From: Gammaproteobacteria bacterium
GTDB taxonomy: Bacteria > Pseudomonadota > Gammaproteobacteria > Pseudomonadales > Halieaceae
Assembly (NCBI GenBank): GCA_030426545.1
Contig: JAUHYL010000003.1
Location: forward strand, 1-64,000
DNA length: 64,000 nucleotides
Reading direction: 5' to 3'
The notes beneath the pieces were generated by a model that saw nothing but the letters and a program-made list of their open reading frames with translations, made no database searches and was not told where the DNA came from. Every line of letters begins with the position of its first letter. The stretch's first letter is position 1. The position numbers and the translations under genes were made by a program. This document shows positions 42,767 through 62,577 of the stretch, in pieces.

Positions 42767-42871
42767 GGTTTGCACCTCCGTGTGCGATGAATCGACCAAT
42801 CTACCCGCTACTATCTCCCGGTGAAACGGGCAAATGCGTTCAGGCGCTTGAAATCCTGGCATTTTGTATTA

Positions 42872-42887
42872 CTGTATATTTATACAG
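42872..42887 (+). promoter_or_regulatory. LexA box of dnaE2
   Basis: Perfect LexA operator CTGTATATTTATACAG (42872-42887), only 20 bp before the chosen ATG at 42908. It overlaps a -10 TATATT (42875-42880); the -35 is poor. The leader would be very short and lacks the hairpin seen at imuA and imuB. Confidence 0.9.
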
Positions 42888-42907
42888 TCTATGGTTTCCC
42901 TGTTCAC

Positions 42908-45900: not shown

Positions 45901-46156
45901 GACCTGCCGCCAGCGGCCGGGCAGTGCCTCGGGCGTACTGTTCCTCACCCTGGAGGACGAAACCGGCAACAGCAACATCGTGGTGTGGAAGCGCACTCAG
46001 GAGCAATTCCGCCAGGCCCTGATGACGGGCCGGTTACTGCTGGTGAACGGCATCGTGGAGCAGAAAGACGGCGTTATTCACGTTATCGCCGGCGCCTTGT
46101 TCGATCACACCGCGGCGCTGGACAAGCTGCGCATCAAATCGCGGGATTTCCACTGA
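42908..46156 (+). CDS. dnaE2: Error-prone DNA polymerase DnaE2 (ImuC)
   Basis: A 1082-aa C-family polymerase for SOS translesion synthesis. PHP domain at the N-terminus (YAELHCLSCYSFLRGASHP), polymerase core with metal Asp pair D420 and D422 in PPDIDVDF, a helix-hairpin-helix and a C-terminal OB fold (RIAGLVTCRQRPGSASGVLFLTLED). An Ala/Thr-rich low-complexity insertion of about 55 residues (residues about 45-100) interrupts the PHP domain. I chose ATG 42908 because the longer frame (42821) would start before its own promoter and LexA box. Confidence 0.94.
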   Translation: MSYAELHCLSCYSFLRGASHPHELVERAAELGYTALAITDECSLSGVVKAHVAVKAIAAREVAARQAAAKALAGTGSTATPITSQTTTPQAATATDSAAREAPPPGAAPKLIIGSELLLEEGLRLVALVPNRAAYAELSGLISMARRRSPKGEYRVSLRDVIFHLKRCLLIWLPRSNDDNHRAYGLQLSRLCRGRLWLGISHLLGNDEVRRYHALHGMAQELGIPMVACGDVRMHTATRKPLHDVFTALRHNTSIDKLGSRRLANSQPHLRTLRSLSRLYPPALLAESVHIASLCNFSLDELRYEYPEEVVPEGHNANSYLRELVAEGAKVRWPAGVPPDIRARIDTELQLISELEYEYYFLTVYDIVQFARQRDILCQGRGSAANSVVCYCLFITEVSPEQISLLFERFISKERDEPPDIDVDFEHERREEVIQYIYRKYSRRRAALAATLITYRSRSAVRDVGKALGLDPVFVDDLAKSMAWWDRTNDLAKRFEEQGVAGHSKQAELFYSLVQQILGFPRHLSQHVGGFVITRSPISTLVPVENASMAERTVIQWDKEDIEALGLLKVDVLALGMLSAIRKSLQMVNRYCPAIKTVSDIPKECAATYRMLQQADTVGVFQIESRAQMSMLPRLKPATFYDLVIEIAIVRPGPIQGDMVHPYLRRKQGLEPITYPNDAIREVLDRTLGVPIFQEQVIKLAMVAAGFSGGEADQLRRAIANWGRNSKLLTFEKKLTKGMIERGYDEDFARRLFDQIKGFAGYGFPESHSASFALLAYVSSWLKRHHPAAFFAGLLNSQPMGFYTPSQLLQDARRHDVTVLPIDVNHSRWDHQLLDAGDKPQAQPPIRLGLRLVKGLSREGAQRLEEARRTGAFRQISDLRQRAKLDKRDMEALADADALQSLSGHRHQSQWQIMALEAPRPLLQAEQHQPGRYFDDGVQLPAPGIAEEVLSDYRATGVTLRAHPMSLLRGQQPFNRCKRHVDLAALGNKRFVRIAGLVTCRQRPGSASGVLFLTLEDETGNSNIVVWKRTQEQFRQALMTGRLLLVNGIVEQKDGVIHVIAGALFDHTAALDKLRIKSRDFH

Positions 46157-46394: not shown

Positions 46395-48473
46395 ATGTCA
46401 CCCCCACAACCGTTAGCAACGCGGCAGCTACCCTGGGCCGTCAGCCTCGCCCTTACTGCGATCGCGAGCCCCGCACAGGCCGAGCGCACCCAGGTCGGTC
46501 CCATGGAGGAGATGGTGGTAACCGCCAGCCGCAGTGCCGAGCGGGTGATGGACAGTCCCGCATCCCTGAGCATACTGAATGAGGAAGATATCGCCCGGGC
46601 AACCACTCCGCTACTGGCAGACCTGATGCGCGACCTGCCGGGAATCAGGGTCAGCGATTCCGGCCAACCCGGTCTCAGCCGCATTCGCATACGCGGCGAG
46701 GAGTCGCGACGCACGGCAATCCTTATCAATGGGCAAGAGGTAACCGACCACTACGAGGTCGGGACCCCCCTCACGCTGCATCCCACCATGGTCGAACGCG
46801 TGGAAGTGATTCGCGGCTCCGGCAGCGTCCTGTACGGCTCTCGGGCGCTCAGTGGTGTGGTCAACTTCCTCACGCGCAAGGGCGGTACCGAGCCTGTAGA
46901 AGCCACCGTGTCCGGCGGTTACAACGGCGCCACCCGCGGCGAGGATTTGTTTGCCAGCGTCTACGGCAACGTCTCGGGCCTGGAATACCGATTCGCCTGG
47001 TCAGATAGCGATCACGAGGAGCGGCAGTCACCCGAGGGCGAAATTGAAAACACCGCGTTTGATAGCAATAGCCTGTACGCCTACCTGGGACGCGGTTTCG
47101 GGGATCATCGTTTCGAATATATCTACGACAACTACGAATCGAGCAGTGACATCTTTGTCGAGGAAGCGGTGCGCACCTCCCCGCCCCTGCTGGATTTCTA
47201 TCTTGAAACGCCACAACGTGATCGGCAACGGCACAGCGTCTTTTACAACTGGGAAATCGACAACAGCTGGCTGCGCCTGATATCCGCCAATGCATCCACA
47301 CAGCAGAGTGATCGTCACTTTTACACGCGCACTGAGCTGGACATCTACGTACGCGATATCAATAACTTCAGCGAACTGAATACAGACGGCGCACTGCTGC
47401 AGTTTGATCTGCAACCCGTCGGCGGACACAGCCTGATCGCAGGCATCCAGTACCTCAACGATGACGTCGACCAGACACGCCACGTCGACACCGTGTCCTC
47501 AGCGCCACCCATTCCCAGCGGGACAGAAATCATCAACGACCGGGCGAACATCGAGACCTGGGCCTGGTTCGTGCAGGATCAGTGGTCACTTCACCCGGAC
47601 GTGACGCTCACGGCTGGTCTGCGCCAGTACTTCGTCGAAGGAGAGCTGGAAGACAGCAACCGCGAAAGCCTCACGCCGGGTTCATTGGACAAGGATGACG
47701 AACTGATTGGCAGCCTCGGTCTGGTATGGGCCACCTCGGACACGCTGAGCCTGCGCGCCAACGTCTCCGAGGGCTACGTTTACCCCTCCTTGCTACAGCT
47801 TGCCACTGGCGCCTACGCCGGCTCACGCTTTGTGAACCCGGAACCAGGCCTCACACCGGAAACCTCGATCAACTACGAACTGGGCCTGCGCCTGCAGCGC
47901 ACTGATCTGACGCTGGATGCCACCGCTTTCTATACCGAATCAGATGACTACATCGACGACCTGCCCTGCACGGCCCAGGACAATTGTCCCGGCAGCCGCG
48001 ACCGCAGGTACCTGAATGTCGGCGAATCGACCGCGCACGGTATCGAGTTATTCACTTCTTACACCGGGCTACCGGCAAACCTGGAAACCTACGGCAACCT
48101 CACCTGGATGGAACGGCGCAATGACTATGAAAATTTCTCCACCCGGGATACCGGTATTCCGCAATTCAGCGGCCGCGCGGGCCTGCGTTGGGCGGGCTCT
48201 GTAGAGCGTCTGCAGGGTGTTTGGGTTGATGGCTATCTGCGCGGTGAAACCAAATCGGATCTCGAGGAGCCGGGCACCGTGCGCAATGTACTGGAATCGA
48301 AATCAGGTTGGGTGACTGCCAACATCGCAGGCGGCATCAACTTTGGCCGCGATACCCGCTACCAGTTGTCGGTGGAATTGTTCAACCTGTTCGACAAAAC
48401 GTATATCGCTTCAGGTGAAAACCTCTACGGCATTGAACGCAGCGCGGCGCTTAAACTTACCGTGAGTATGTAA
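46395..48473 (+). CDS. TonB-dependent outer-membrane receptor 2
   Basis: A 692-aa receptor: signal peptide (cut near AQA), TonB-box-like EEMVVTASRSAER, plug domain with IRIRGEESRRTAILINGQEV and VEVIRGSGSVLYGSRALSGVVNF, then a 22-strand barrel ending LKLTVSM. The subtype resembles FepA/CirA/BtuB-like receptors. Because it is controlled by a DNR/FNR-like box and next to nirS and CuA/heme-copper genes, it could import copper or heme for denitrification; ligand is inference. It converges on nirS with a shared terminator. Confidence 0.88.
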   Translation: MSPPQPLATRQLPWAVSLALTAIASPAQAERTQVGPMEEMVVTASRSAERVMDSPASLSILNEEDIARATTPLLADLMRDLPGIRVSDSGQPGLSRIRIRGEESRRTAILINGQEVTDHYEVGTPLTLHPTMVERVEVIRGSGSVLYGSRALSGVVNFLTRKGGTEPVEATVSGGYNGATRGEDLFASVYGNVSGLEYRFAWSDSDHEERQSPEGEIENTAFDSNSLYAYLGRGFGDHRFEYIYDNYESSSDIFVEEAVRTSPPLLDFYLETPQRDRQRHSVFYNWEIDNSWLRLISANASTQQSDRHFYTRTELDIYVRDINNFSELNTDGALLQFDLQPVGGHSLIAGIQYLNDDVDQTRHVDTVSSAPPIPSGTEIINDRANIETWAWFVQDQWSLHPDVTLTAGLRQYFVEGELEDSNRESLTPGSLDKDDELIGSLGLVWATSDTLSLRANVSEGYVYPSLLQLATGAYAGSRFVNPEPGLTPETSINYELGLRLQRTDLTLDATAFYTESDDYIDDLPCTAQDNCPGSRDRRYLNVGESTAHGIELFTSYTGLPANLETYGNLTWMERRNDYENFSTRDTGIPQFSGRAGLRWAGSVERLQGVWVDGYLRGETKSDLEEPGTVRNVLESKSGWVTANIAGGINFGRDTRYQLSVELFNLFDKTYIASGENLYGIERSAALKLTVSM

Positions 48474-48529: not shown

Positions 48530-50368
<1,839 letters not shown>

Positions 50369-50406: not shown

Positions 50407-51948
50407 CTAGCTATCGGAGGCTATCACATTGGCGGCCTTTCCCTGGCGTGCTTCTTGACGCTTGCGCTTGTCCACCAACGGCGGACAGCGCTGATCATCC
50501 CAGTAGGTCACCTGACATTCCAGACAGTAATGGCACTCGTTGTCGAGGATCTCGCCGGTGGGCTTGATCGCATCGATCTGGCACTGGCTGGCACAGGCCT
50601 GACAGGGGCTGCCACACTCGCTGCGTCGGCGCAGCCAGTCAAAAATCTTGAAATTGGTGATAAAGCTGAGACCAGCGCCAAGCGGGCATAGATACTTGCA
50701 GTAGAACTTGCTGTTAACAGCCGATACTGCAAGCAATGCCACAGCCCACAACACGTACTGGGGTTGGCGCATAAAATACAGCACAAACGTCGTCTTGAAC
50801 GGTTCCACCTCGGCCAGTCGAGCCGCATTGGCCATGGAGTCCAGCGACAGGCCGACCAGCGCAATCAGGATAAGGTACTTGATCGCCCACAGTCGCTCAT
50901 GCAGCGGTTGCGGTAACTGGTAACCTTCTACGCCCAGTCGAGTGGCGAGCTTGCTGATCAAATCCTGAGCGGCCCCGAAGGGGCACAGCCATCCGCAGAA
51001 CACTCCGCGCCCCCAGAGCAGGATACTGACGGCAACGAACGCCCAGAGCACAAAGATGACAGGCTCTATAAGAAGAGTGTCCCAGGAAAAGCCGCCGCCC
51101 AGACTGTGAAAGAACGCCAGCAGGTTCACCACCGAGAGCTGGGCGGAACAATAAAAGCCGATAAAGAACACGGTGAACAAAAGGTACCCCGTTCGCACCC
51201 GGTGAAACAGCCTGGTGCGTTTTACCAGGCTGTCCTGAAAGAACAGCACGGCGAACAGTACCACCAGCGCCACCGATACCACGCCCAGCTCGAAAGCGCG
51301 CTCCATCCACAGCTGCTTCCACGGTGGAAAATCATCATATCCCCCATCGATTGTCGTCTGCACCGCCACTGTCGTCGGCGCTTCAGACTCCGCCGAGACA
51401 GTACTGGGCAGGCCATAGCTCTGCACGACCCGGCGCGCCGCCTTGGTGATGGAACTGGTGATCACCATGGTGGTGATCGTGGCGCCACTGATGCCGTCGA
51501 TGCCAACGTAGCCCTCGCGCCCGCGCGCGCCGACGCGAATACGGTCGGCACTGTGCTTACCGACAAACTGCGCGACAAACTCCTGTAGATGCTGGTCTGA
51601 TACGCCGATAACGAGAATTGGCTCCTCGTGGTGCAGAATAGTGGCGCCCGCTATCCGCCCGGCCGCATCCAGACCAACCAGCATATCGACTGGCTTGCCG
51701 GAATAGGCAGCAATCGGCGACACCGCAGCGGTTGAGAAGGCGTACCCGAGCGGCGCGCTACCGCTGCGCACCAGCACGGCAGGAACGGCACCATCAAGCG
51801 CAGAGATTTCGGTGGCATCGGGAAAAACAGCCTGTACATCAGTAAGGCCTGGATCGGCGGCGTGGACTGCAGCCGACACCCACCCCCATGCTAGGATGCC
51901 CAGCATGGCGAACGTAAAGCGGACATCACTGCTGCATTTTCTGGCCAT
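50407..51948 (-). CDS. NirI/NosR-like membrane flavo-iron-sulfur protein
   Basis: A 513-aa inner-membrane protein. A periplasmic FMN-binding domain comes first, with the flavinylation motif GISGATITTMV. About six helices follow, bearing CGWLCPFGAAQD and CKYLCPLGA, and then cytosolic [4Fe-4S] motifs CGSPCQACASQC and CHYCLECQ. NosR/NirI proteins pass quinol electrons to periplasmic denitrification enzymes or support their expression. This one is shorter than typical NosR (about 700 aa). Start ATG 51948 behind GGAAGG. It lies upstream of nirS, in the same direction, so NirI-like is preferred; NosR cannot be excluded. Confidence 0.82.
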   Translation of the reverse strand: MARKCSSDVRFTFAMLGILAWGWVSAAVHAADPGLTDVQAVFPDATEISALDGAVPAVLVRSGSAPLGYAFSTAAVSPIAAYSGKPVDMLVGLDAAGRIAGATILHHEEPILVIGVSDQHLQEFVAQFVGKHSADRIRVGARGREGYVGIDGISGATITTMVITSSITKAARRVVQSYGLPSTVSAESEAPTTVAVQTTIDGGYDDFPPWKQLWMERAFELGVVSVALVVLFAVLFFQDSLVKRTRLFHRVRTGYLLFTVFFIGFYCSAQLSVVNLLAFFHSLGGGFSWDTLLIEPVIFVLWAFVAVSILLWGRGVFCGWLCPFGAAQDLISKLATRLGVEGYQLPQPLHERLWAIKYLILIALVGLSLDSMANAARLAEVEPFKTTFVLYFMRQPQYVLWAVALLAVSAVNSKFYCKYLCPLGAGLSFITNFKIFDWLRRRSECGSPCQACASQCQIDAIKPTGEILDNECHYCLECQVTYWDDQRCPPLVDKRKRQEARQGKAANVIASDS

Positions 51949-52048
51949 TGGCGCCTTCCATTTCCCCGTTGACGCCAGGCGACACACGCTGGCGCATCCG
52001 CGCCCCGCCACCTTTGTCACGGGACTACGTGAAACTTACTGCGGTGCG

Positions 52049-52381
52049 GTGTTACTTGCCGCGTTGGCAGCCCTGGCACCGCTGGCGATCGCCAGCAGTC
52101 AGGATAACCAGGTCAACGAGCGACTGCCGGTCAGCGTTGCGGAGCGAGAGGCTCACTGGGGTGTCGATTGCACGGCCCTGTTCACGCAACTATCCAGCGG
52201 CGCACTTCCCTGTCCTGTAACAGACGATACACAGCGTGAACTGGAGTTGTGTAGCTTCATCCACCAGCCTCCGGGCGATGATCATGGTCAGCCATGCCCC
52301 GATTACCGGGTTCTGTTGCAGCGGGCGAGGCAGTCCACCTGCCAGGACCTGCAGGCCTACACGCAACAACTGGATTGCTGA
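52049..52381 (+). CDS. Hypothetical exported six-cysteine protein
   Basis: A 110-aa product with an N-terminal hydrophobic segment (VLLAALAALAPLAIAS) like a signal peptide and six cysteines in the mature part (GVDC, LPCP, LCSF, QPCPDY, STCQ, LDC at the C-terminus). It starts at GTG 52049 with a weak ribosome site; the frame is open from 51812, inside nirI on the other strand. It fills the 434-bp gap between nirI and the FNR box. Not recognised; moderate chance of being a shadow. Confidence 0.4.
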   Translation: MLLAALAALAPLAIASSQDNQVNERLPVSVAEREAHWGVDCTALFTQLSSGALPCPVTDDTQRELELCSFIHQPPGDDHGQPCPDYRVLLQRARQSTCQDLQAYTQQLDC

Positions 52382-52426: not shown

Positions 52427-52468
52427 TTGACCGAGGTCAACATTCCACAAGTTTCAAGTGGCTATGAT
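52427..52468 (+). promoter_or_regulatory. FNR/DNR-type promoter of the norSY-like operon
   Basis: TTGACCGAGGTCAA (52427-52440), a perfect TTGAC-N4-GTCAA palindrome, is centred 32 bp before the -10 TATGAT (52463-52468). This is exactly the class II arrangement (activator at about -41.5). The first gene starts at 52536. Confidence 0.78.
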
Positions 52469-52535
52469 GATCCGACTCGCCTCTGCCGCCTATCCAGCGG
52501 TGGGCGCAATCTCTGGTCCGTGGAAGGAGCAAGTC

Positions 52536-52688
52536 ATGCAGGATCCTATAGAAGAATCAGAACAGATACCCATGATGCAGAAACTGCTGGATAACCCGTT
52601 TCTGCTGCTTTTTATCGGCGTTGCCACTCCCGCACTGCTTTACCTGGTATGGGGATTAGCCGAGATCTTCACCATTCCCGTGCGCTAG
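52536..52688 (+). CDS. 50-aa single-helix membrane peptide
   Basis: A short protein with one transmembrane helix (NPFLLLFIGVATPALLYLVWGLAEI). It starts at ATG 52536 behind GGAGC and ends 27 nt before the CuA subunit. Small subunits of this kind accompany many heme-copper enzymes, suggesting an accessory subunit of the NorSY-like complex. Not assigned to a named family. Confidence 0.7.
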   Translation: MQDPIEESEQIPMMQKLLDNPFLLLFIGVATPALLYLVWGLAEIFTIPVR

Positions 52689-52715
52689 GCACGGATCGAT
52701 CCAGGAGAGCAGCCA

Positions 52716-53258
52716 ATGTCCAGCCTTTCGCCCCCCGGTAAGAAACTGTGGTGGAAAGAACCCATCCATCGCTCGGAACTGATATGGATTTCGCTTGTGT
52801 TCGTGTGGGGGCTGGTCATGACCTTCATGATGCCCTACTGGCACGTGGTGGGAAAACAGAACCTCGGCACTGAAACCTACAAAAGCACCGCCGAACAGTT
52901 CCAGGCATCAACCGAGGCCTTTGTAGAGCAATACACCGTGCGCACGGAGGGGCCGCGCAATTTTCCGGTAGTAGCGCCCCCGGCAGGCGGCGATGTCTAC
53001 CTGATCTCACGCTTGTGGGATTGGTGGCCGATACTGCAGCTTAAGAAAGGCGAGACTTACCGCTTTCACCTTTCCTCCCTGGACTGGCAGCACGGTTTTT
53101 CTCTGCAACCGGCGAACATCAATATCCAGGTAGTGCCCGGCTACGAGCACGTCTTTAACCTGACCCCTACAGAAACCGGCGAATACTCGGTTATCTGCAA
53201 TGAATACTGCGGCATCGGCCATCACCTGATGATCGGAAAAATCTACGTCGTTGACTAA
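52716..53258 (+). CDS. norS: CuA-containing heme-copper enzyme subunit II (NorS-like)
   Basis: A 180-aa protein: one N-terminal helix (about residues 21-40), then a periplasmic cupredoxin. All CuA ligands are visible: H126 in DWQHGF, C161-N-E163-Y-C165, H169 and M172. It would accept electrons from a cytochrome c and pass them to subunit I. Together with the SCO gene and a Gln-substituted subunit I, this matches the NorSY-SenC arrangement known in nitrifiers (an NO reductase, sNOR type) rather than an ordinary oxidase. Symbol by analogy. Confidence 0.75.
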   Translation: MSSLSPPGKKLWWKEPIHRSELIWISLVFVWGLVMTFMMPYWHVVGKQNLGTETYKSTAEQFQASTEAFVEQYTVRTEGPRNFPVVAPPAGGDVYLISRLWDWWPILQLKKGETYRFHLSSLDWQHGFSLQPANINIQVVPGYEHVFNLTPTETGEYSVICNEYCGIGHHLMIGKIYVVD

Positions 53259-53273
53259 TAAGGGATAAGGGAA

Positions 53274-54968
53274 ATGGCTAATACAACTTTCAGAACCTGC
53301 CCGGACACCGGCCTCAAATTCAACGGCGCAACCGAGTCACTGCTCAAGGCGAATGCGGTGGCGGCGGTTGTATTCCTGCTGATCGGAGGGTTTTACGGCT
53401 TGTTGGTCGGGCTGACCCGCTGGCAGGCCGTGCACCTGCTGGGCGCACAGGATTTTTACATGGTATTGACGGCCCACGGCCTCAACGTGTTGATTTTCTG
53501 GATCATCTTTTTCGAGATCGCCATCCTGTACTTCGCATCGTCAGTCCTGCTCGGTTGTCGACTTGCGACGCCGAAATGGGCGTGGGCGGGCTTCGCCCTG
53601 ATGGTGATCGGTGCAGTCATGAACAACGTTGTTGTCATGCAGGGTCAGTCCAGCGTGATGATGACCTCCTACGCGCCGATGGAGGCGCACCCGCTGTTTT
53701 ACCTCAGCCTCATCCTGTTCGCGGTTGGCGCATTGATAGGGTGCTTCGTGTTTTTCGGCACTCTTGTAGTGGCGAAATCAGAGAAGACCTATGAGGGTTC
53801 TGTGCCGCTGGTCACGTTTGGTGCCATCACGGCAGCCATCATCGCGGTTTTCACCATCGTCAGCGGCGCGATCATCCTCCTGCCCACTTTCCTGTGGAGT
53901 GTGGGCCTGGTGGGAGAGATTGACGCACTGGCCTACCGCCTGATCTGGTGGGCTTTCGGCCACTCATCGCAACAGATCAATGTCGCGGCACACGTGTCGG
54001 TGTGGTACGCAATCGCCGCGATCCTGTTCGGTGCCAGGCCGTTGTCGGAGAAGGTCAGCCGCACCGCCTTCTTCATGTACATCCTGTTCCTGCAGATTGC
54101 CAGCGCTCACCACCTGCTTGTAGACCCGGGCGTCAGTTCCAACTTCAAAATGTTCAACACCAGCTATGCCATGTACCTCGCCGTGATGGCTTCCATGGTG
54201 CACGGGCTGACGGTTCCAGGCTCCATCGAAGCGGCGCAGCGTGCCCGCGGGCACCGCGCCGGATTGTTCACGTGGCTGCGCAAGGCACCCTGGGGCAACC
54301 CGGTATTCTCGGGCATGTTTATCTCACTTGTCGGCTTTGGCTTCCTCGGGGGCATTACCGGCGTGGTGATGGGCGCTGAGCAGATCAACCTGCTGGTCCA
54401 CAACACGCTGTATGTGCCCGGGCACTTTCACGCCACGGTAGTGGTGGGCACTACGCTGACCTTCATGGCCCTGACCTACTGGCTGGTACCGGTGTTGTTC
54501 CGGCGCGAGATCATCCTGAAGGGCCTGGCCAAGTGGCAGCCCTACCTGTTCGGTCTGGGAATGTCTGGCGTGTCACTGTTTCTGATGGGAGCGGGCACCC
54601 TCGGTGTGCCGCGCCGCCACTGGGACATCGGCTTTGCCGCAACCGGGGGTGTAACCCACGAGTTTCCTGCCGCGGCCTACACCATGCTGGCGCTCAACGG
54701 CATGTCGGTGATCGTAGCCGTAATCGGAGGCGCCGCCTTCTGCGTCATTATCGTCGGTTCCCTCCTGTTCGGTAAAAAGCTGGGCGACCAGAAAATGGAT
54801 GAACAGTGGATCGCCACGCCAGTGACCGACGAGGAGTACGCCGCGGACGGCGGCAGCGCTTACGCTATTCCGGGCACAATCGTCCTGGCAATGATATTCT
54901 TCATCAGCTTCGCCCTGTACTACTTCATCAACTGGAAGTACCTGGCGGAAACCTGGGGAATCAGCTAA
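53274..54968 (+). CDS. norY: Heme-copper subunit I with Tyr-to-Gln active site, predicted NO reductase (NorY-like)
   Basis: A 564-aa protein with about 12-14 helices. All metal ligands are present: low-spin heme H68, CuB/FeB site H230 plus H279-H280, and H384-F-H386. In oxygen reductases of the A and B families the first CuB His is followed four residues later by the cross-linked Tyr (H-x3-Y); here the stretch is H230-S-S-Q-Q234. Loss of that Tyr is expected for NO reductases derived from oxygen reductases, such as sNOR/NorY. The gene lies behind a DNR-type promoter with nirS next door. NO reductase activity is inferred; O2 reduction is less likely. Confidence 0.72.
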   Translation: MANTTFRTCPDTGLKFNGATESLLKANAVAAVVFLLIGGFYGLLVGLTRWQAVHLLGAQDFYMVLTAHGLNVLIFWIIFFEIAILYFASSVLLGCRLATPKWAWAGFALMVIGAVMNNVVVMQGQSSVMMTSYAPMEAHPLFYLSLILFAVGALIGCFVFFGTLVVAKSEKTYEGSVPLVTFGAITAAIIAVFTIVSGAIILLPTFLWSVGLVGEIDALAYRLIWWAFGHSSQQINVAAHVSVWYAIAAILFGARPLSEKVSRTAFFMYILFLQIASAHHLLVDPGVSSNFKMFNTSYAMYLAVMASMVHGLTVPGSIEAAQRARGHRAGLFTWLRKAPWGNPVFSGMFISLVGFGFLGGITGVVMGAEQINLLVHNTLYVPGHFHATVVVGTTLTFMALTYWLVPVLFRREIILKGLAKWQPYLFGLGMSGVSLFLMGAGTLGVPRRHWDIGFAATGGVTHEFPAAAYTMLALNGMSVIVAVIGGAAFCVIIVGSLLFGKKLGDQKMDEQWIATPVTDEEYAADGGSAYAIPGTIVLAMIFFISFALYYFINWKYLAETWGIS

Positions 54969-55000
54969 CCCCCGCGGCGCCATTACACAGACGGTGTTCG

Positions 55001-55810
55001 ATGCACATATTCTTCAGGCCGGTTATAGCCGGCCTTTTTCTTTCAGCATGGGCGCTGCACTCAGGTGCAGCGCCCACACTGTCAGGCTTCAGCCACGATG
55101 AAGCCCTCGCCTACAGCCAGGCGGTTATCGGCACCACGCCGACCGGAATAAAGCTACAAACGGAGGACGGCAGCGCGCTGGCGCTGGCGGATTACCGCGG
55201 GAAGCCGCTGGTCATCAGCCTCATCTTCACCAGTTGCCACCACATTTGTCCTTCCACTACGCAGCACCTTGCTGAGGTTGTAGAAAAGGCGCGTGCGGTA
55301 CTCGGCGAAGACAGTTTCAACGTCCTTACAGTGGGTTTCGACACAGCCAACGATACGCCTGAACGCATGGCGCAGTTTCGGCGCGAGACCGGCGTAGCAG
55401 ATAGCCACTGGCAGTTCGCCGCCGGCAGCGCCCCGGACATGCAATCGCTGGTTGAACAGCTCGGCTTCATCTACGCGCCCTCATCGAGGGGCTTTGACCA
55501 CCTGATCCAGGCGTCTGTGCTGGACGCCGAGGGCGCCGTTTACCGTCAGGTCTACGGCATCACGTTTCCCACGCCTACGCTGGTTGAACCGCTCAAACAA
55601 CTGGTGTTCGGCGAGCCCCGTGAGCAATCCACGCTGGATTATTTGCAAAATCGTATCCGCCTTTTCTGCACGGTCTACGATCCGGCAACGGACAGTTACC
55701 ACATTGATGTCTCGGTGTTTATCGGCACCTTCGTCGGCATCGTCGTGTCCATCGTTTTTGGCAGTGTACTGGTCAGGGAATGGCGCCGCAGCCTGAAGGC
55801 CGGACGATGA
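55001..55810 (+). CDS. senC: SCO1/SenC copper chaperone with C-terminal membrane helix
   Basis: A 269-aa periplasmic thioredoxin-fold protein that delivers copper to CuA. A signal sequence is followed by SLIFTSCHHICPSTTQHL with the CxxxC copper motif and the conserved His in RGFDHLIQAS. Unlike most SCO proteins it ends in an additional membrane helix (VFIGTFVGIVVSIVFGSVL) with a basic tail. Start ATG 55001 (MHIFFRPV). Its stop overlaps the next start (ATGA). Confidence 0.85.
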   Translation: MHIFFRPVIAGLFLSAWALHSGAAPTLSGFSHDEALAYSQAVIGTTPTGIKLQTEDGSALALADYRGKPLVISLIFTSCHHICPSTTQHLAEVVEKARAVLGEDSFNVLTVGFDTANDTPERMAQFRRETGVADSHWQFAAGSAPDMQSLVEQLGFIYAPSSRGFDHLIQASVLDAEGAVYRQVYGITFPTPTLVEPLKQLVFGEPREQSTLDYLQNRIRLFCTVYDPATDSYHIDVSVFIGTFVGIVVSIVFGSVLVREWRRSLKAGR

Positions 55811-57351
55811 AAGCACTGCTAAAAAAGGGCTTCCACCAGGCAGACCGCCTGTTTTCCAACGTGTTTACGCCGCAGTGGAACCCGCTGTACCAACTCGGCG
55901 CCCTGTCATTTTTCTACTTCTGGATCGTGGCGATCACCGGCGTCTACCTGTTTATCTTTTTCGAGACCAGCATACACGGCGCCTATGCCTCGATAGAGCG
56001 CATCACCCATGAGCAGTGGTTCGTCGGCGGGGTGATGCGCAGCTTTCACCGCTATGCCTCCGCTGCCATGGGAATTAGCGTGACGTTGCACCTGCTGCGA
56101 GAATACGCCATGGATCGCTACAGCGGCCCGCGGTGGTTCAGCTGGGTGACGGGCATTCCGCTGCTGTGGCTACTGTTCGCCGCCGCCATCGGCGGTTACT
56201 GGCTGGTTTGGGACCAACAGGCGCAGTACATCGCGATTCTTACGGCGGAGTTTCTGGACTGGCTACCCATCATGGTCGATCCCATGGCGAGTAACTTTCT
56301 CAACGAGTCCACCCTGAGCAATCGCCTGTTCTCGCTGCTGGTGTTTCTGCACATAGGCATTCCGCTGGCGCTGCTGCTGGGCATGTTCATCCATATCAAG
56401 CGTATCAGCGCAGCGCGTACCAACCCGGCCAAGGGGCTTGCGGCGGGGACTCTGCTGGCAATGCTGGCCGTCTCGTTGTGGAAGCCGGCGCTGAGTCAGG
56501 CCCCGGCGAACCTCGACCGGGCGGTTACCGAGGTCGGTCTGGATTGGGTCTTTCTCAATACCTATCCGTTGATCGACAGCTGGGGCCCTGGGCAGACCTG
56601 GGCGCTGCTGGTTGGACTGTCCTGCCTGCTTACCATCGTGCCCTGGTTGCCATCGCGGCGGCCCGAACAAACGCCCATTGCGGTGGTTGATCCAGAGAAC
56701 TGCAACGGCTGTGGCTGGTGTCTGGCAGATTGCCCCTATGAAGCCGTGACGATGAAGGAGCATGACTTCAAGAGTGGACACCAACAGTCGGTGGTGGATC
56801 CGGACCTGTGTCTTAGCTGTGGCATTTGCGCGGGCGCCTGCCCCTCGTCTTCCCCCTTCCGCCATGTCGACGAACTGACCACGGGGATCAGCATTCCCGG
56901 TTTCCACATCAAGGAACTGCTGTCACTGACAGAGAACAAGCTGGCGGTACTGGCAACCGGCGCGCCACGCATCATGCTCTACGGCTGCGATCACGGCAGC
57001 GTTGTGGAGCCCATGGCATCTGACTCTGTCGCTGCGATCAGCATGCCCTGCTCCGCGCTTGTGCCCCCAGCCTTCGTCGACTACGTATTGCGCAAGAATC
57101 TCGCCGACGGCGTTGTGATCAGCGGCTGCTGTGAAGGCGACTGCCACTACCGCCTGGGTAACAGCTGGCTGGAGCAGCGCTTCAGCCAGGAGCGCATGCC
57201 GATACTGCGCACGCGGGTACCGCGAGAGCGGGTCAGGTTACGCTGGCTGGGCGAGCAGGGCACGGCACAACTCAGAGAAGAGATCGACGCTTTCCAACGC
57301 GATCTTACGGCAGAGACGGTGGTGACGTTACAGGAGGCGCCCAATGGCTAA
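55807..57351 (+). CDS. Cytochrome b - 2[4Fe-4S] ferredoxin - MvhD fusion protein
   Basis: A 514-aa three-module protein. Residues about 1-230: cytochrome b N-terminal (bc1/b6) domain with four His at the 14-residue spacing of the two b hemes, H81/H95 and H182/H196. Residues about 290-350: two [4Fe-4S] clusters (C299-x2-C302-x2-C305-x3-C309-P and C335-x2-C338-x2-C341-x3-C345-P). Residues about 385-500: a FlpD/MvhD-like [2Fe-2S] domain with LYGCDHGSVV and VVISGCCEGDCHYRLGN. It links membrane quinone/heme chemistry to a soluble low-potential Fe-S relay. Start overlaps SCO by ATGA; the next ORF overlaps its stop by 8 nt. Role unproven. Confidence 0.85.
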   Translation: MKALLKKGFHQADRLFSNVFTPQWNPLYQLGALSFFYFWIVAITGVYLFIFFETSIHGAYASIERITHEQWFVGGVMRSFHRYASAAMGISVTLHLLREYAMDRYSGPRWFSWVTGIPLLWLLFAAAIGGYWLVWDQQAQYIAILTAEFLDWLPIMVDPMASNFLNESTLSNRLFSLLVFLHIGIPLALLLGMFIHIKRISAARTNPAKGLAAGTLLAMLAVSLWKPALSQAPANLDRAVTEVGLDWVFLNTYPLIDSWGPGQTWALLVGLSCLLTIVPWLPSRRPEQTPIAVVDPENCNGCGWCLADCPYEAVTMKEHDFKSGHQQSVVDPDLCLSCGICAGACPSSSPFRHVDELTTGISIPGFHIKELLSLTENKLAVLATGAPRIMLYGCDHGSVVEPMASDSVAAISMPCSALVPPAFVDYVLRKNLADGVVISGCCEGDCHYRLGNSWLEQRFSQERMPILRTRVPRERVRLRWLGEQGTAQLREEIDAFQRDLTAETVVTLQEAPNG

Positions 57352-57838
57352 GGCCTCCCGCTACCTCGGCCAGGCGCTTCTCTACGCCCTGTTTTTTCTG
57401 CCGATCGCATGGCTGACCCACCAGCCCACGCACACCCACCTCGAGCCGGGTATGGCGGAACTGAAGATCGCGGTGCGCCACGCCGGTAAGATTATCGGCC
57501 AATGCGGCACCGACAACAGCGCGCCAGAGGTGCTGTTACCAGAACATGTCACGCGCCCCGAAATTTGTCCGCGAGAACGCTCGCCGCTGCAGCTGGAGTT
57601 GCTGCTGGACGGCGAAACACTGTACCGTGCCACCGTTGCCCCTTCCGGGCTGCACAACGACGGGGTATCGAGTATGTACCGGCGCTTCCGCGTACCTGCC
57701 GGCAGGCACCACCTGGCGTTGCGCATGAACGACGACGCTGCCCGCGAAGGTGCCACCTGGGAACTCGTAGCGCCTATCGAGCTGGCACCCGCGCAGGTAC
57801 TGGTAGCGACTTTTAAGGAAGGATTCAGACTACAGTGA
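57344..57838 (+). CDS. Membrane-anchored periplasmic protein of unknown function
   Basis: A 164-aa protein with an N-terminal membrane segment (ALLYALFFLPIAWL) and a beta-rich soluble part containing CGTDNSAPEVLLPEHV, ICPRERSPL and PSGLHNDGVSSMYRRF; two cysteines and several His. It starts inside the fusion gene's stop region (8-nt overlap) and its own stop overlaps the next start (GTGA), so it is coupled on both sides. This placement implies a dedicated assembly or subunit role. No family recognised. Confidence 0.72.
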   Translation: MAKASRYLGQALLYALFFLPIAWLTHQPTHTHLEPGMAELKIAVRHAGKIIGQCGTDNSAPEVLLPEHVTRPEICPRERSPLQLELLLDGETLYRATVAPSGLHNDGVSSMYRRFRVPAGRHHLALRMNDDAAREGATWELVAPIELAPAQVLVATFKEGFRLQ

Positions 57839-59223
57839 CAGCGGATGACAACTACAGCCTGGCGGTGCCACAGGATGCGCGCCGCCTGCTGGCCCTTGGC
57901 TGGTTGTGGCTCTGCGTGCTGGCGCTGCTCGGCGCCGGTGTATTCTCACTGCTACTGGTCCTGGCACGTACGCCCTACCTGTCGGACATTATTCCCTGGA
58001 TAGGCTTTTTCCACTCCGCGCTGGTGGTGCACGTGGACCTGTCGGTACTGGTATGGAGCCTGGCCTTCGGCGGCATGTTGTGGAGCCTGAATCAGCGTGC
58101 GGGACACTCCTCTATCGCGTGGATTGCGCTGGTGCTCGCCAGTGTGGGCGCCGCAATCATCATCGCATCGCCGTTCGTGCGCGACGCACAACCGCTGATG
58201 AGCAACTATATTCCCGTTCTGCAACACCCGGTATTTTTCACCGGCCTGTTCACTTTCGCTATCGGCTTTACACTGCTGGTGATCAACAGCATGGTATTCA
58301 TGGCGCCGGTTGGGCCACTTATGAGCGCGCGCGGTGCGCTGCGCTTCGGTCTCAATACCGCGGCCGTGTCGGCGGCGGTCGCGATGATCTGCTTCCTCTG
58401 GTCCTACCTGCAGATTCCCGACTACCTGATGGGACGCTCCTTCTTCGAACTGCTTTTTTGGGGTGGCGGCCATGTACTGCAGTTCACCTACACATTATTA
58501 ATGCTGGTCTGCTGGCTCTGGCTGGCGCACGCGGCGGGACTCCGCCTGCCGGTAACACCGCGCGTGGTGCTGGTCATACTCTTCGTCGGACTGGCCTGCG
58601 TCTTCGTGTCGCCCCTCATTTACCTTGCCTGGCCCATCACGTCGGCAGAACACGTGAAACTGTTTACCTGGCTGATGCGCTGGGGAGGCAGCCTGGGTAC
58701 CCTGCCCCTAGCGTTGGCGATTATCATTGCACTGTTGCGCTACGGCGGTGAAACCGGGCAGGAAATCCTCGCGCGTTCTGCATTGCAGTGCTCGCTGTTT
58801 CTATTCGGCATTGGCGGCATTATCGGCTTTATGATCAGCGGCAGCGATGTCACGATACCAGCGCACTATCACGGCTCAATTGTCGGTGTAACGCTGGCGA
58901 TGATGGGGGTGTGCTATCTGCTGTTACCCAAACTCGGATACCCACTGCACAATCAACGACTGGCGACGTGGCAGCCGGTGATCTACGCGGGAGGGCAATT
59001 GATGCACGTCGCCGGACTGGTATGGTCGGGCGGTTACGGCGTGCAACGCAAGGTTGCCGGCGCGGAACAGGGACTGGACTCTATCGAGCGGATACTCGGT
59101 ATGGGGCTAATGGGGCTGGGTGGACTGGTGTCCTCCATCGGCGGCCTGTTGTTCCTGATTATCGTGTTGCGCGCCCTGTTGCGGGTTAAGGACAATGCGC
59201 ATCAGACTGAACGTGGACAGTGA
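57835..59223 (+). CDS. Divergent heme-copper oxidase-like subunit I lacking the His-His pair
   Basis: A 462-aa membrane protein with about 12 helices. It keeps the likely low-spin heme His (H66 in VVHVDLSVLVW), one His at the helix VI copper position (H213 in GGGHVLQF) and H344-Y-H346. No His-His pair exists in the protein; only H273 (TSAEHVKLF) is in the right region. No Tyr at +4 of H213 (F217; Q216 at +3). The binuclear metal centre is therefore altered or lost. Start GTG 57835 coupled by GTGA. It may be a heme-only electron carrier or an unusual NO/O2 enzyme; unclear. Confidence 0.72.
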   Translation: MTADDNYSLAVPQDARRLLALGWLWLCVLALLGAGVFSLLLVLARTPYLSDIIPWIGFFHSALVVHVDLSVLVWSLAFGGMLWSLNQRAGHSSIAWIALVLASVGAAIIIASPFVRDAQPLMSNYIPVLQHPVFFTGLFTFAIGFTLLVINSMVFMAPVGPLMSARGALRFGLNTAAVSAAVAMICFLWSYLQIPDYLMGRSFFELLFWGGGHVLQFTYTLLMLVCWLWLAHAAGLRLPVTPRVVLVILFVGLACVFVSPLIYLAWPITSAEHVKLFTWLMRWGGSLGTLPLALAIIIALLRYGGETGQEILARSALQCSLFLFGIGGIIGFMISGSDVTIPAHYHGSIVGVTLAMMGVCYLLLPKLGYPLHNQRLATWQPVIYAGGQLMHVAGLVWSGGYGVQRKVAGAEQGLDSIERILGMGLMGLGGLVSSIGGLLFLIIVLRALLRVKDNAHQTERGQ

Positions 59224-59394: not shown

Positions 59395-59955
59395 ATGCGA
59401 GAACACAACACAATGAGGCAAAACAAGAAAACCCGGAGCACGGGTATCGCGCTGGTGCTTGCCATCGTGTTACCGCTGGGACTGGCCGGGTGCAGCGAGA
59501 AGCGCTTCCAGGCGCCACTGGCCGTGGATTTCAATCTGCCTGCGTTGGACGGCAGCGGCAACGTCACCTTGTCAGAATTTCGCGGTGACGTGGTCTACCT
59601 CAGCTTCTGGGCATCCTGGTGCGTCCCCTGCCGGGCGGAAATGCCGCATCTGCAGGAACTCTGGCAACAACACCGCGACGACGGCTTCCAGGTGATCGGC
59701 ATCAATGTAGACGATGATCCGCAGAAAGCGATCGACTTTGCCGCGGAGCACGGCATTGAATTTCCCCTGGTAAGCGACGAGTCACGCGCGGTCAGCAGGC
59801 AGTACCGCGTTGCCGGTTACCCGACACACTACATCGTCGGGCGGGACGGACGGGTGCATTTCTCAGCGCTTGGATTTACCGAGGATGATGCCCTGGCGGT
59901 GACGGTGGAGGTACAGACCCTGCTGAGGGGCTCAGCCGATGGAGCAGATTTATAG
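59395..59955 (+). CDS. TlpA-like thiol-disulfide lipoprotein
   Basis: A 186-aa protein (180 aa if it starts at ATG 59413). Signal peptide ends in a lipobox, GLAGCSE. The thioredoxin-like domain has the active site WCVPC in SFWASWCVPCRAEMPHL, and IDFAAEHGIEFPLVSDES, GYPTHYIVGRDG. It likely reduces disulfides in the periplasm, for example on cytochrome c or CuA proteins. Its 3' end overlaps the converging heme A synthase by 80 bp. Confidence 0.87.
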   Translation: MREHNTMRQNKKTRSTGIALVLAIVLPLGLAGCSEKRFQAPLAVDFNLPALDGSGNVTLSEFRGDVVYLSFWASWCVPCRAEMPHLQELWQQHRDDGFQVIGINVDDDPQKAIDFAAEHGIEFPLVSDESRAVSRQYRVAGYPTHYIVGRDGRVHFSALGFTEDDALAVTVEVQTLLRGSADGADL

Positions 59956-60880
59956 CGGTCAGCAGCAGCCCTGCGGCCAGCGCGTTGTGTAGCGTCAACA
60001 TCAGCAGCGGTAGCGCGAACCAAATATTCGACACGCCCAGCAACAGCTGGCCTATTGAGAAGGCAGCGAGCGTCGCCAGCGTTGCGCCCAGCTCGCGTTG
60101 CGACTTCAGCGCGCGCACCAGCCACGCCAGATATGCGGCAGTGAGCAACGCCAGCAGACGATGGGTCATGCTCATCAGTCCAAGCGCCTCACTGGCTATG
60201 ACTTTGCCATTTGCATCCAGCGCAATGTCACGCGCCGGATTAAACGCGTCCGGTATGTCAGCGACCCTCAGCTCGGGCTGACAGTCGATCAAACCCGGAC
60301 AGTTTGCCGACGCGTAGTTCGCGCTGCTCCAGCCACCGAGAACAATTTGCAGCGCTATCATTGCCATGCCCACGCGCGCCCAGACGCGCCAGCGCCCGGC
60401 CACCGCATTCTCTTCAATCTGTTCTGCCTCACGTTGCATCATCCACCAGAGCAGCCCCAGCATGGCCATACCGCCGAGAAGGTTGCCCATTGTAATCAGC
60501 GGGTTGCTGCGCGTCGGTGTGTAATATCCGAGCAAAGACAGGAATACGGTAATCAGCAGCACCGCTGTCGGAACGGCGACACCCACTGTCCGCTGTGCTC
60601 CCCTGCGCAGGGCGGCCACGAAAATGCCAACAACCAGAACACCCAGGATGCTGGCGATGTAGCGGTGAGCAATCCGTGCGCCACGATGCGCCATATCCTG
60701 ACCCTGCGTGGTCAGTACCGTAACGCCCTTCTTCTCCAACTCGGCATCCAGCTGCGCGTAACACGCGGGCCAGGGTTCGCAGCCAATGCCCACCTCCGCC
60801 AGGCGGATATAGGCAGAGAGTATTACCGTTATCAGGGTAAGCAGAACTGAAAGCGAGATCAGTGAACGGTAGATGGGCAA
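59876..60880 (-). CDS. ctaA: Heme A synthase (COX15/CtaA)
   Basis: A 334-aa membrane enzyme that oxidises heme O to heme A for heme-copper enzymes. It has eight helices with the ligand His in AHRGARIAHRYIAS and MTHRLLALL, LHNALAAGL, and the conserved GxGCEPWPAC segment. Start TTG 60880 (LPIYRSLISL) avoids overlap with the MscS gene; a TTG at 60967 would extend it by 29 aa. Proximity to the NorSY-like genes is consistent with a need for heme a, although heme type there is not shown. Confidence 0.9.
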   Translation of the reverse strand: MPIYRSLISLSVLLTLITVILSAYIRLAEVGIGCEPWPACYAQLDAELEKKGVTVLTTQGQDMAHRGARIAHRYIASILGVLVVGIFVAALRRGAQRTVGVAVPTAVLLITVFLSLLGYYTPTRSNPLITMGNLLGGMAMLGLLWWMMQREAEQIEENAVAGRWRVWARVGMAMIALQIVLGGWSSANYASANCPGLIDCQPELRVADIPDAFNPARDIALDANGKVIASEALGLMSMTHRLLALLTAAYLAWLVRALKSQRELGATLATLAAFSIGQLLLGVSNIWFALPLLMLTLHNALAAGLLLTAINLLHRLSPSAGSVPPPSPPGHHPR

Positions 60881-60930
60881 TCCCCCCGTAAGGCAACAGT
60901 CGCCGGCAAACGCTTCCGCCGGGGCATGAT

Positions 60931-62577
60931 TTAACGCTGCGGTGGTGTCGCTGGCGCCGGGTACCAATCCTCGGGCGGCACGACCTTCGGCGCAGCAGGA
61001 TCAGACTCATAGTTCGGCGACATGATCTGCACGCCGTACTCGTTAAACACGTCCTGGATATTCGCATGCAGCAGGCTGTACACGCGCATTAGCTGCGACA
61101 CATCGCGGCAATAGGCGTTCAACTGGTAGGTCACCGCAAAATCGCCTATCACGGTCTGCAAAACGAAGGGTTCCGGATCGGATTCCAGGCCTGCCGTGCG
61201 CGATGCAGCCATTTTCAGCATGGCTTCTACCTGGCGCCAGGGTGTATCGAAGCCGATGCCGACATCGGTGTGCAGCACCAGGCCCTGCTGTTTTTCGTAG
61301 GTGCTGTAATTGACCACGGCGCTGGACAGCACCTCGGAGTTGGAGATGTTGATCTCCTCGTTCTTCAGCGAGCGCAAAGTAGTGGACAGCGCCCGCACAG
61401 CAACCACCTCCCCGGTGTACTCGCCGATGCGTACGCGATCGCCTTCACGAAATGCGCCGCGATAGGTCAGGCTATAACCCGCCAGCATGTTTGCCACGAA
61501 CGACGATGAACCGATGGAAAACACCACGCCGAGAAAAATACTGACGCCCTTGAACGCCTCGGAATCGGAGCCGGGGATATAGGGGTAGGCCACCACCAGG
61601 GCAAACGCGATGATAAGGATGCGCACGATGCGGTAGGTGGGTAGCGCCCAGTCACGGTCGAAGCTGTTGAGTCGAATCCAGCCGCGGTCGATGCGCTCGA
61701 AGAAGGTTCGCGTGGCCTGCAGCACGAAGCGCACCACGAAAAATAGAATCACCAGGAAGACCAGGTCGGGCACGGATGCAACAAAGCCGTTACCCATTTT
61801 TTGCAGCGGGTTGAGTATCAGCTGGAAAATGCTGGCGGCGAAGGGGCGCGTCCAGGGGTAAAGGCCCAGGGCGGAATTGAGCCAGGTCAGCACAATCGCG
61901 ATCAACGTCAGCGCGCGCACGCCACGCAGTAAACCGCCCAGCCAACTCCAGAGCTGGGCCGCGTCGATCACGCGATGGGAAGCGCGTTCGATATGCTCTA
62001 TACGTCGTTTGACGACGCGCTCTATCAGACGATTGAGCCACGCAAACAGTGCACTTACCGCAAACACCAACAAGGCCGCGAACAGCGAAATACCGAGTAG
62101 AATCCCGGTGCTTCTCAGCAGGCTGCGTGAACTGCGCGCCTCCCGATAGGCTTCAATGGCTTGCGTTAGCCGCGCCGTCGTGGCCTCGGCGAGCACGGCC
62201 AGTGGCACCTGCTCTATCTCAGCATCGGCCTGCACAAGACCGGTTACCATCTCGCCATCAATATAGATGCGCACGCGATCACCCTGCACTTCGGTGGTAA
62301 CGGCGCTGGCGTCGATTAAAGGATCGTCGGCCAGTTCGATCAGGCGCTCGCGGATCTGCCTGGCCCGCTCCGTCGCAGGCAGTGCGGAAACGCCGCGGAC
62401 GCGGAACAGGGTTTCACCGTCCAGCTGCACCTCGGACACCAGCACCGCCTGGGCGCTGCCCAGCGTCTCCGCGCCAGGAGTGGGAGCCGCACCCGCGTCA
62501 GCGCGGGCGGTGCCAGCGAACAGGGGCAGGCAAGATAAACCGAGCAGAGTGCACAGCGTCAGGAGGTGTTTGCGCAT
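60931..62577 (-). CDS. MscS-family mechanosensitive channel
   Basis: A 548-aa protein: signal peptide (cut near GTARA-DA), a periplasmic domain of about 130 residues, then several membrane helices and the MscS core (SIGSSSFVANMLAGYSLTYRGAFREGDRVRIGEYTGEVVAV) with the C-terminal beta domain. Larger than E. coli MscS (286 aa), like MscM-type channels; role in osmotic shock. It ends 50 nt before ctaA's chosen start on the same strand. Confidence 0.9.
   Translation of the reverse strand: MRKHLLTLCTLLGLSCLPLFAGTARADAGAAPTPGAETLGSAQAVLVSEVQLDGETLFRVRGVSALPATERARQIRERLIELADDPLIDASAVTTEVQGDRVRIYIDGEMVTGLVQADAEIEQVPLAVLAEATTARLTQAIEAYREARSSRSLLRSTGILLGISLFAALLVFAVSALFAWLNRLIERVVKRRIEHIERASHRVIDAAQLWSWLGGLLRGVRALTLIAIVLTWLNSALGLYPWTRPFAASIFQLILNPLQKMGNGFVASVPDLVFLVILFFVVRFVLQATRTFFERIDRGWIRLNSFDRDWALPTYRIVRILIIAFALVVAYPYIPGSDSEAFKGVSIFLGVVFSIGSSSFVANMLAGYSLTYRGAFREGDRVRIGEYTGEVVAVRALSTTLRSLKNEEINISNSEVLSSAVVNYSTYEKQQGLVLHTDVGIGFDTPWRQVEAMLKMAASRTAGLESDPEPFVLQTVIGDFAVTYQLNAYCRDVSQLMRVYSLLHANIQDVFNEYGVQIMSPNYESDPAAPKVVPPEDWYPAPATPPQR

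Follow-up and report, generated by a model that had tools for sequence, protein, structure and literature searches.

A bc1-like cytochrome b-ferredoxin-FlpD module found with eNOR-type nitric oxide reductase genes in Proteobacteria

We interpret the region described here, part of a 64,000-nucleotide (nt) stretch of contig JAUHYL010000003.1 (the window, to which all coordinates refer), as a denitrification island belonging to a Halieaceae-like gammaproteobacterium whose draft genome is 97.85% complete. Its central element is a cluster of seven open reading frames (ORFs) at 52536-59223 on the plus strand, named g1 to g7 in order. Conserved active-site residues assign the g1-g3 core to the eNOR type of nitric oxide (NO) reductase, and co-occurrence supports the view that g5-g6, a cytochrome b-iron-sulfur fusion protein and its membrane-anchored partner, accompany eNOR in Alpha-, Beta- and Gammaproteobacteria alike and are dedicated to it in Proteobacteria. 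Taken jointly, the eNOR identity and the existence of a dedicated g5-g6 unit are in our judgement probable, although well short of certain. The genes are as follows.

g1, 52536-52688, plus strand: 50-amino-acid peptide with a single transmembrane (TM) helix, probable small eNOR subunit; no Pfam match.
g2, 52716-53258, plus strand: CuA-type subunit II; PF00116 just below cut-off, TIGR02866 at an expectation value (E) of 2e-12, below its cut-off.
g3, 53274-54968, plus strand: catalytic heme-copper subunit I of the eNOR type; PF00115 (COX1).
g4, 55001-55810, plus strand: SCO1/SenC-type copper chaperone; PF02630, 48.6 bits against a cut-off of 22.8.
g5, 55807-57351, plus strand: fusion of a bc1-like cytochrome b (two b hemes predicted) with two putative [4Fe-4S] clusters and a FlpD/MvhD domain (putative [2Fe-2S]); Pfam Cytochrome_B, Fer4 and FlpD.
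g6, 57344-57838, plus strand: 164-amino-acid TM-anchored beta-sandwich protein with invariant C54 and C75; no Pfam or NCBIfam match.
g7, 57835-59223, plus strand: divergent paralogue of heme-copper subunit I without the CuB His-His pair; PF00115, 39.2 bits.

The tight order of seven plus-strand genes given in the original prediction is borne out by the ORFs and by Pfam. Of the four overlapping junctions it counted, three exist: g4/g5 (ATGA, 4 nt), g5/g6 (8 nt) and g6/g7 (GTGA, 4 nt). The other junctions have gaps of 27 nt (g1/g2), 15 nt (g2/g3) and 32 nt (g3/g4).

The reductase core

The metal ligands of g3 (H68, H230, H279, H280, H384 and H386) are invariant in 61/61 sequences, window included, as is Q234, which lies at the CuB His+4 position. 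According to PMC8756737, including its Table A4, the two types are told apart by the residue that replaces the oxidase Tyr, which is Gln in eNOR and Asn in sNOR. Because all 61 sequences carry Gln, g3 is of the eNOR type, and the sNOR (NorSY-like) identity proposed in the original prediction is rejected. The order of CuA subunit, COX1 and SenC genes does resemble that of norS, norY and senC, which likewise stand together in ammonia oxidisers (PMC6967387). However, the cluster differs from NorSY-SenC not only in its active-site residue but also in the extra genes g5-g7, g7 occurs without the enzyme, and a conserved hairpin follows g3 (both described below), so that a seven-subunit complex based on NorSY appears very improbable.

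In g2, the CuA ligands H126, C161, C165, H169 and M172 (motif CNEYCGxGHHxM) are kept in 61-62 of 62 rows. The closest solved relatives of the g3 profile are B-type ba3 oxidases, with E values of 7e-51 to 1e-42, others being no better than 1e-7, in agreement with the grouping of eNOR (= ba3-a1) with B-type oxidases (PMC11388526, PMC8879329). Plasmid-encoded proteins of Thermus and Thermomicrobium align with 99-100% of subunit I at ~45% identity and have the QQ motif in common with g3, and Tyr occupies the Gln position in the homologues examined from Deinococcus, Haloarcula, Sinorhizobium, Methylobacterium and Geobacillus. The eNOR-like (ba3-a1) loci of Thermus and Thermomicrobium share with the cluster a small TM peptide (peptides similar to g1 stand at the same place before the eNOR-like genes), a CuA subunit II and a subunit I with Gln at CuB His+4. 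In Thermomicrobium and in Defluviimonas, a heme o synthase gene adjoins these genes. As a separate observation, the Thermus thermophilus plasmid subunit I (L192, 12001-13686) has GHFK in place of the GHFH of the other sequences; Lys here takes the place of the second His in HFH, so that one low-spin heme ligand is seemingly replaced.

Five COX1-family places were found in the draft genome, namely two aa3-like, one cbb3-type, g3 and g7, with neither cNOR nor qNOR among them; apart from g3, no heme-copper protein resembling an NO reductase was found there. In annotations of homologues, database records label eNOR subunit I as cytochrome oxidase. The characterised eNOR is the R. marinus enzyme. 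The eNOR family and its spread in Proteobacteria are already known (PMC8756737, PMC10734462, PMC8114936).

The g5-g6 module and its distribution

A g5 alignment was used to scan 84,980 species genomes. Of the 129 relatives that it yielded, the 80 best were examined; their record titles include Halieaceae, Porticoccaceae, Rhodospirillaceae, Rhodocyclaceae, Accumulibacter, Burkholderiales and Hyphomicrobium. Many of these loci are short, and the flank counts for g1, nirS, nirI and ctaA/ctaB cover the available flanks only. Where 5 kb or more of DNA precedes g5 (61 loci), 58 loci have g3 in this upstream region and in the same orientation, seven of them at a distance greater than 2.5 kb; the loci without it (L078, L091 and L121) belong to genomes that encode g3 elsewhere. 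With at least 900 bases downstream of g5 (73 loci), g6 is found downstream in 65, upstream in 5, fused in 2 and missing in 1. The small peptide g1 was found in 61/80 g5 loci, some being too short to reach it, and g7 is present in 39/46 loci with long flanks. Pairwise distances point the same way, g5 having rank correlations of 0.72 with g3 and 0.80 with g4.

A survey of 398 genomes of the phylum (thresholds E<=1e-40 for g5 and E<=1e-60 for g3) detected g5 in 34 genomes and g3 in 30, with 29 genomes carrying both, many positives coming from few families, so that the 29 genomes are not 29 independent events. In the genome with g3 only (G210), the contig stops just past g4, and a search for g6 found none. 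The genomes with g5 only are G261, G276, G283, G364 and G415. Completeness is 96% for G283, an assembly of about 730 contigs with 6% contamination, and between 69 and 82% for the other four. The assignment of genes 5 and 6 to the NO reductase in the original prediction is supported by these counts. All seven genes were also found in the isolate Seongchinamella sediminis U0301 (L053). A complete plasmid of the isolate Defluviimonas sp. SAOS-178 (L191, NZ_CP156080.1), on which g7 is not annotated, carries the order g1-g2-g3-heme o synthase-SCO-g5-g6-hemerythrin; here g1, g2 and g6, hypothetical proteins in the annotation, were assigned by place, and the hemerythrin-family gene lies directly 3' of g6.

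Beside the Thermus and Thermomicrobium eNOR-like loci, the annotated genes comprise the peptide, the CuA subunit and subunit I and none of g5-g7, and the g5 matches listed (20 of 31) include no plasmid of either genus. The g1-g3 core is therefore wider spread than the accessory set. Among the papers listed in our literature searches, no description could be tied to the g5-g6 module with eNOR; Figure 5 of PMC6431628, on oxidase gene clusters, which the text cites together with the ba3-a1 operon, may show these genes.

The residues expected to hold the cofactors of g5 are strongly conserved: the heme His H95, H182 and H196 occur in 81/81 sequences and H81 in 79/80, and every Cys of the ferredoxin (eight) and FlpD (four) domains is kept in 81/81. 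The FlpD domain (PF02662, over cut-off) with its invariant Cys is shared with FlpD/MvhD of Hdr/hydrogenase systems, from which g5 differs in being fused to a membrane cytochrome b. In three loci (L064, L067 and L078), g5 and g6 are a single ORF. A model of the natural fusion from L078 (AlphaFold confidence, pLDDT, 85.0) has six long helices followed by the Fe-S domains and matches bc1 cytochrome b over ~255 residues with Z scores of 17-22. Like bc1/b6f cytochrome b, g5 thus combines this fold with four heme His, but it adds C-terminal ferredoxin and FlpD domains and has D246-W247 (80 and 81 of 81 sequences) at what we take to be the position of PEWY, the quinol-site motif of bc1. Assuming the topology of bc1, the Fe-S domains would be cytoplasmic. 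No Pfam match to a Rieske protein or cytochrome c1 was found among g1-g7.

For g6, an AlphaFold2 model (pLDDT 92.9) shows a TM helix and a beta sandwich, and C54 and C75 are invariant in 60 rows. It has no Pfam or NCBIfam match to CtaG/Cox11, which is also not among the structure matches listed. From the ligands, the fold and the gene fusion, we read g5-g6 as one transmembrane electron-transfer unit, in which the kinds of Fe-S cluster, the orientation in the membrane and the route of the electrons are putative. On 29/80 loci (including L084, L101 and L122), another g5-like gene, longer than g5 itself, is present beside the eNOR cluster; the three examples examined with Pfam have the same cytochrome b fused to Fer2, FAD and NAD domains, and all four heme His are kept in the 12 that were aligned. 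The membrane module is therefore used with different cytoplasmic redox heads.

Regulation and possible roles of g5-g6

Two putative regulatory elements were located in the window.

FNR/DNR-type site TTGACCGAGGTCAA, 52427-52440, plus strand: exact match to TTGACN4GTCAA.
Terminator-like hairpin, 8 bp followed by TTTTTCTTT, 55016-55035, plus strand: at the g3/g4 junction, within the first codons of g4.

Upstream of the relatives' clusters, the exact motif TTGAYN4RTCAA recurs in 36/60 (0.06 expected) and a site with at most one mismatch in 52/60 (2.2 expected), where expected values, here and for the hairpins, come from shuffles that preserve base composition only. A TATGAT sequence, read directly at 52463-52468, would centre the window's box at -41.5, the spacing of class II activation, in line with the class-II-type FNR/DNR promoter of the original prediction. 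DNR-type control of the cluster is strongly supported as a prediction from sequence.

The hairpin has a T run, with a folding z of -3.3 for 54966-55060. Since the scanned stretch contains no more terminator-like sites than shuffled sequences (4 observed versus 6.3), the case for it rests on conservation. A terminator-like hairpin follows g3 in 32/66 relatives by a stricter criterion (0.2 expected) and in 35/67 sequences, window included, by a looser one (2.3 expected). Under the stricter criterion, hairpins are seen after g1 in 0/61, g2 in 3/61, g4 in 0/72, g5 in 0/78, g6 in 4/76 and g7 in 0/59. The position after g3 is kept, and the sequence varies between groups of loci. We infer that partial termination at this point would set g1-g3 above g4-g7. 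Of the single operon originally predicted, the seven genes and the FNR/DNR site stand, whereas the hairpin splits g1-g3 from g4-g7; the single complex is unsupported, because a conserved hairpin argues against equal amounts of the two parts.

In the mechanism that we propose, nirS would make NO, and the predicted eNOR g1-g3, switched on by an FNR/DNR activator, would reduce it to nitrous oxide (N2O). The genes g1-g3 would form the structural half of the cluster and g4-g7 the accessory half. Judging from its family, the SCO protein g4 probably loads CuA; in Magnetospirilli, too, the ba3-a1 operon is reported to include SCO (PMC6431628). Electrons may pass from a cytoplasmic FlpD [2Fe-2S] cluster and two [4Fe-4S] clusters to the two b hemes and on to the outer face, where the beta domain of g6 would be located. 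Our preferred, though tentative, reading is that g5-g6 is a transmembrane reductase that supplies electrons, with SCO, to mature the copper and heme-A centres of eNOR. Maturation is favoured over turnover because the conserved hairpin should lower the abundance of g4-g7, and because the Thermus and Thermomicrobium eNOR-like genes lack adjacent g5-g6. The order after the hairpin, SCO, g5, g6 and often ctaB/ctaA, is moreover mostly the company of maturation factors and would suit a low dosage; by eye, ctaB stands between g3 and g4 in 30/66 loci.

A less likely possibility is that g5-g6 is a direct donor, in which electrons from quinol at an outer site, or from cytoplasmic Fe-S/NADH, pass via the b hemes and g6 to CuA, giving a respiratory chain for NO reduction without passage through bc1. 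Such a route would be consistent with the tight co-occurrence of g5-g6 with eNOR, the g5 ligands for two b hemes and an Fe-S chain, the intact CuA site of g2 and the g5 paralogue, which is NAD-binding in the three cases examined. The hairpin after g3 and the absence of g5 from the annotated surroundings of the Thermus and Thermomicrobium genes, whose plasmids are also not among the g5 matches listed, speak against it, and g6 has no recognised redox domain in Pfam or NCBIfam. It is rather doubtful that g5-g6, joined by the NADH-binding cytochrome-b paralogue where present, forms an undescribed bc1-like complex feeding Fe-S/NADH or quinol electrons into eNOR; if true, this would be a dedicated proteobacterial NO-respiration chain needing neither bc1 nor free cytochrome c.

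A third role is suggested by the heme-A genes, one or both of ctaA and ctaB lying on the flanks of 70/80 g5 loci, a company that also suggests heme A in this eNOR. In this role g5, with or without g6, would act as a reductase of heme A synthase, passing electrons to CtaA to provide heme A for eNOR under low oxygen. Mitochondrial Cox15 requires ferredoxin; g5 has ferredoxin-like domains, and g7 sometimes follows ctaA. However, the alphaproteobacterial loci L070, L072, L077 and L082 have no ctaA/ctaB on their available flanks, and CtaA occurs in 276/398 genomes compared with 34 for g5, which leaves this role improbable. We therefore place the maturation reductase first, the direct donor second and the heme-A-synthase reductase third, the weight given to each being a matter of judgement.

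Several points weigh against a maturation reductase dedicated to eNOR. The conserved D-W of g5 would be compatible with quinol binding and hence with a role in turnover instead. The CuA subunit already permits ordinary input from cytochrome c, so that g5-g6 may serve neither as electron donor nor in maturation. Structure searches with g6 gave no informative match in the PDB (best E 0.038; best Z 9.3, to human HGSNAT), the matches after HGSNAT being unrelated beta sandwiches. At L091, g5 follows another COX1-like gene, with neither g6 nor g3 on the locus (g3 lies elsewhere in the genome), which argues against strict dedication. CtaA is so common that its company with g5 is weak evidence. The terminator-like hairpins are predicted and are absent in about half of the loci; related loci are non-independent, which affects the FNR/DNR and hairpin statistics as well, and the analysis covers the best 80 of the 129 g5 relatives.

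g7, neighbouring genes and significance

When aligned to g3, g7 retains four ligands of heme-copper oxidase subunit I, namely the two His of the low-spin heme, that of the high-spin heme and a single His of CuB, and H66, H213, Q216, H344 and H346 are kept in 46/46 sequences. Unlike the oxidase subunit, it lacks the CuB His-His pair, H213 being the only one of the three CuB His that is conserved. Because the heme ligands are kept and the pair is absent, g7 should bind hemes yet form no normal binuclear centre. It is found in 58/398 genomes, namely 29 of the 30 with g3, 5 with g5 only and 24 with neither. Since 29/58 g7 genomes are without g3, gene 7 does not belong to the NO-reductase system in the way originally predicted, and a role as an eNOR-specific subunit is rejected in view of the 24 genomes.

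In some relatives without eNOR, g7 adjoins ctaA, ctaB and other cox genes of aa3-oxidase clusters; neighbour genes in several relatives, including those around L091, were named by eye from their N-termini, and the ctaA genes beside g7 in L040 and L042 were also identified by tblastn. Within 1.5-kb flanks, ctaA is present in 9/30 g7 loci of the phylum survey, window included, and by eye CtaA occurs in 54/58 g7 genomes, compared with its overall frequency given above. We read g7 as a CuB-less heme-copper paralogue, probably heme-binding, that follows the genes of heme-A oxidases and reductases more widely and perhaps helps in heme-A assembly. A wider family of CuB-less g7-type paralogues was also noted (L038-L042, L200-L228), several of them near ctaA/ctaB, SCO or ABC-transporter genes, several of which were named by eye.

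The cluster is flanked by the following genes.

nirS, 48530-50281, minus strand: cytochrome cd1 nitrite reductase; PF02239 (E 8e-144) and a cytochrome c domain.
nirI/nosR-like gene, 50407-51948, minus strand: short polyferredoxin with an FMN-binding domain; PF12801 and PF04205, NosR model at 618 bits, below the cut-off of 1000.
ctaA-like gene (heme A synthase), 59876-60967, minus strand: taken as the genome's single PF02628 (COX15-CtaA) match, E 4.5e-35; no NCBIfam match.

Homologues of the ctaA-like ORF occupy the same place in relatives. Pfam and NCBIfam confirm the divergent nirS/nirI-like genes in the window. Constant company of nirS is not seen, the flanks of related loci carrying nirS in 18/80 and nirI in 16/80, and nirS is rejected as a constant neighbour. 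Between nirI and the FNR/DNR site, a small ORF at about 52010-52381 (plus strand), which the original prediction does not list, has a signal-peptide-like start and several Cys; in relatives, homologues with 32-52% identity are found close to g1 or to nirI-like genes. Upstream of nirS, a DnaE2-like polymerase ORF (42821-46156, plus strand) and a TonB-receptor-like ORF (46395-48473, plus strand) were named by eye. For nosZ, TIGR04244 gave no match over cut-off in the draft genome and TIGR04246 only weak matches, to g2 and another CuA-like stretch; an absence of nosZ is therefore provisional, as the controls gave no clear positive.

As a recently recognised NO reductase, eNOR is a source of the greenhouse gas N2O. 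Carried by 29/30 sampled eNOR genomes of the phylum in the case of g5, and kept across three proteobacterial classes, the partner set is a useful genomic marker for eNOR, and g7 hints at a broader group of heme-copper paralogues that lack CuB and lie close to heme-A genes. The cluster makes two questions testable in isolates, namely the source of electrons for eNOR and the assembly of its copper and heme centres when oxygen is low.

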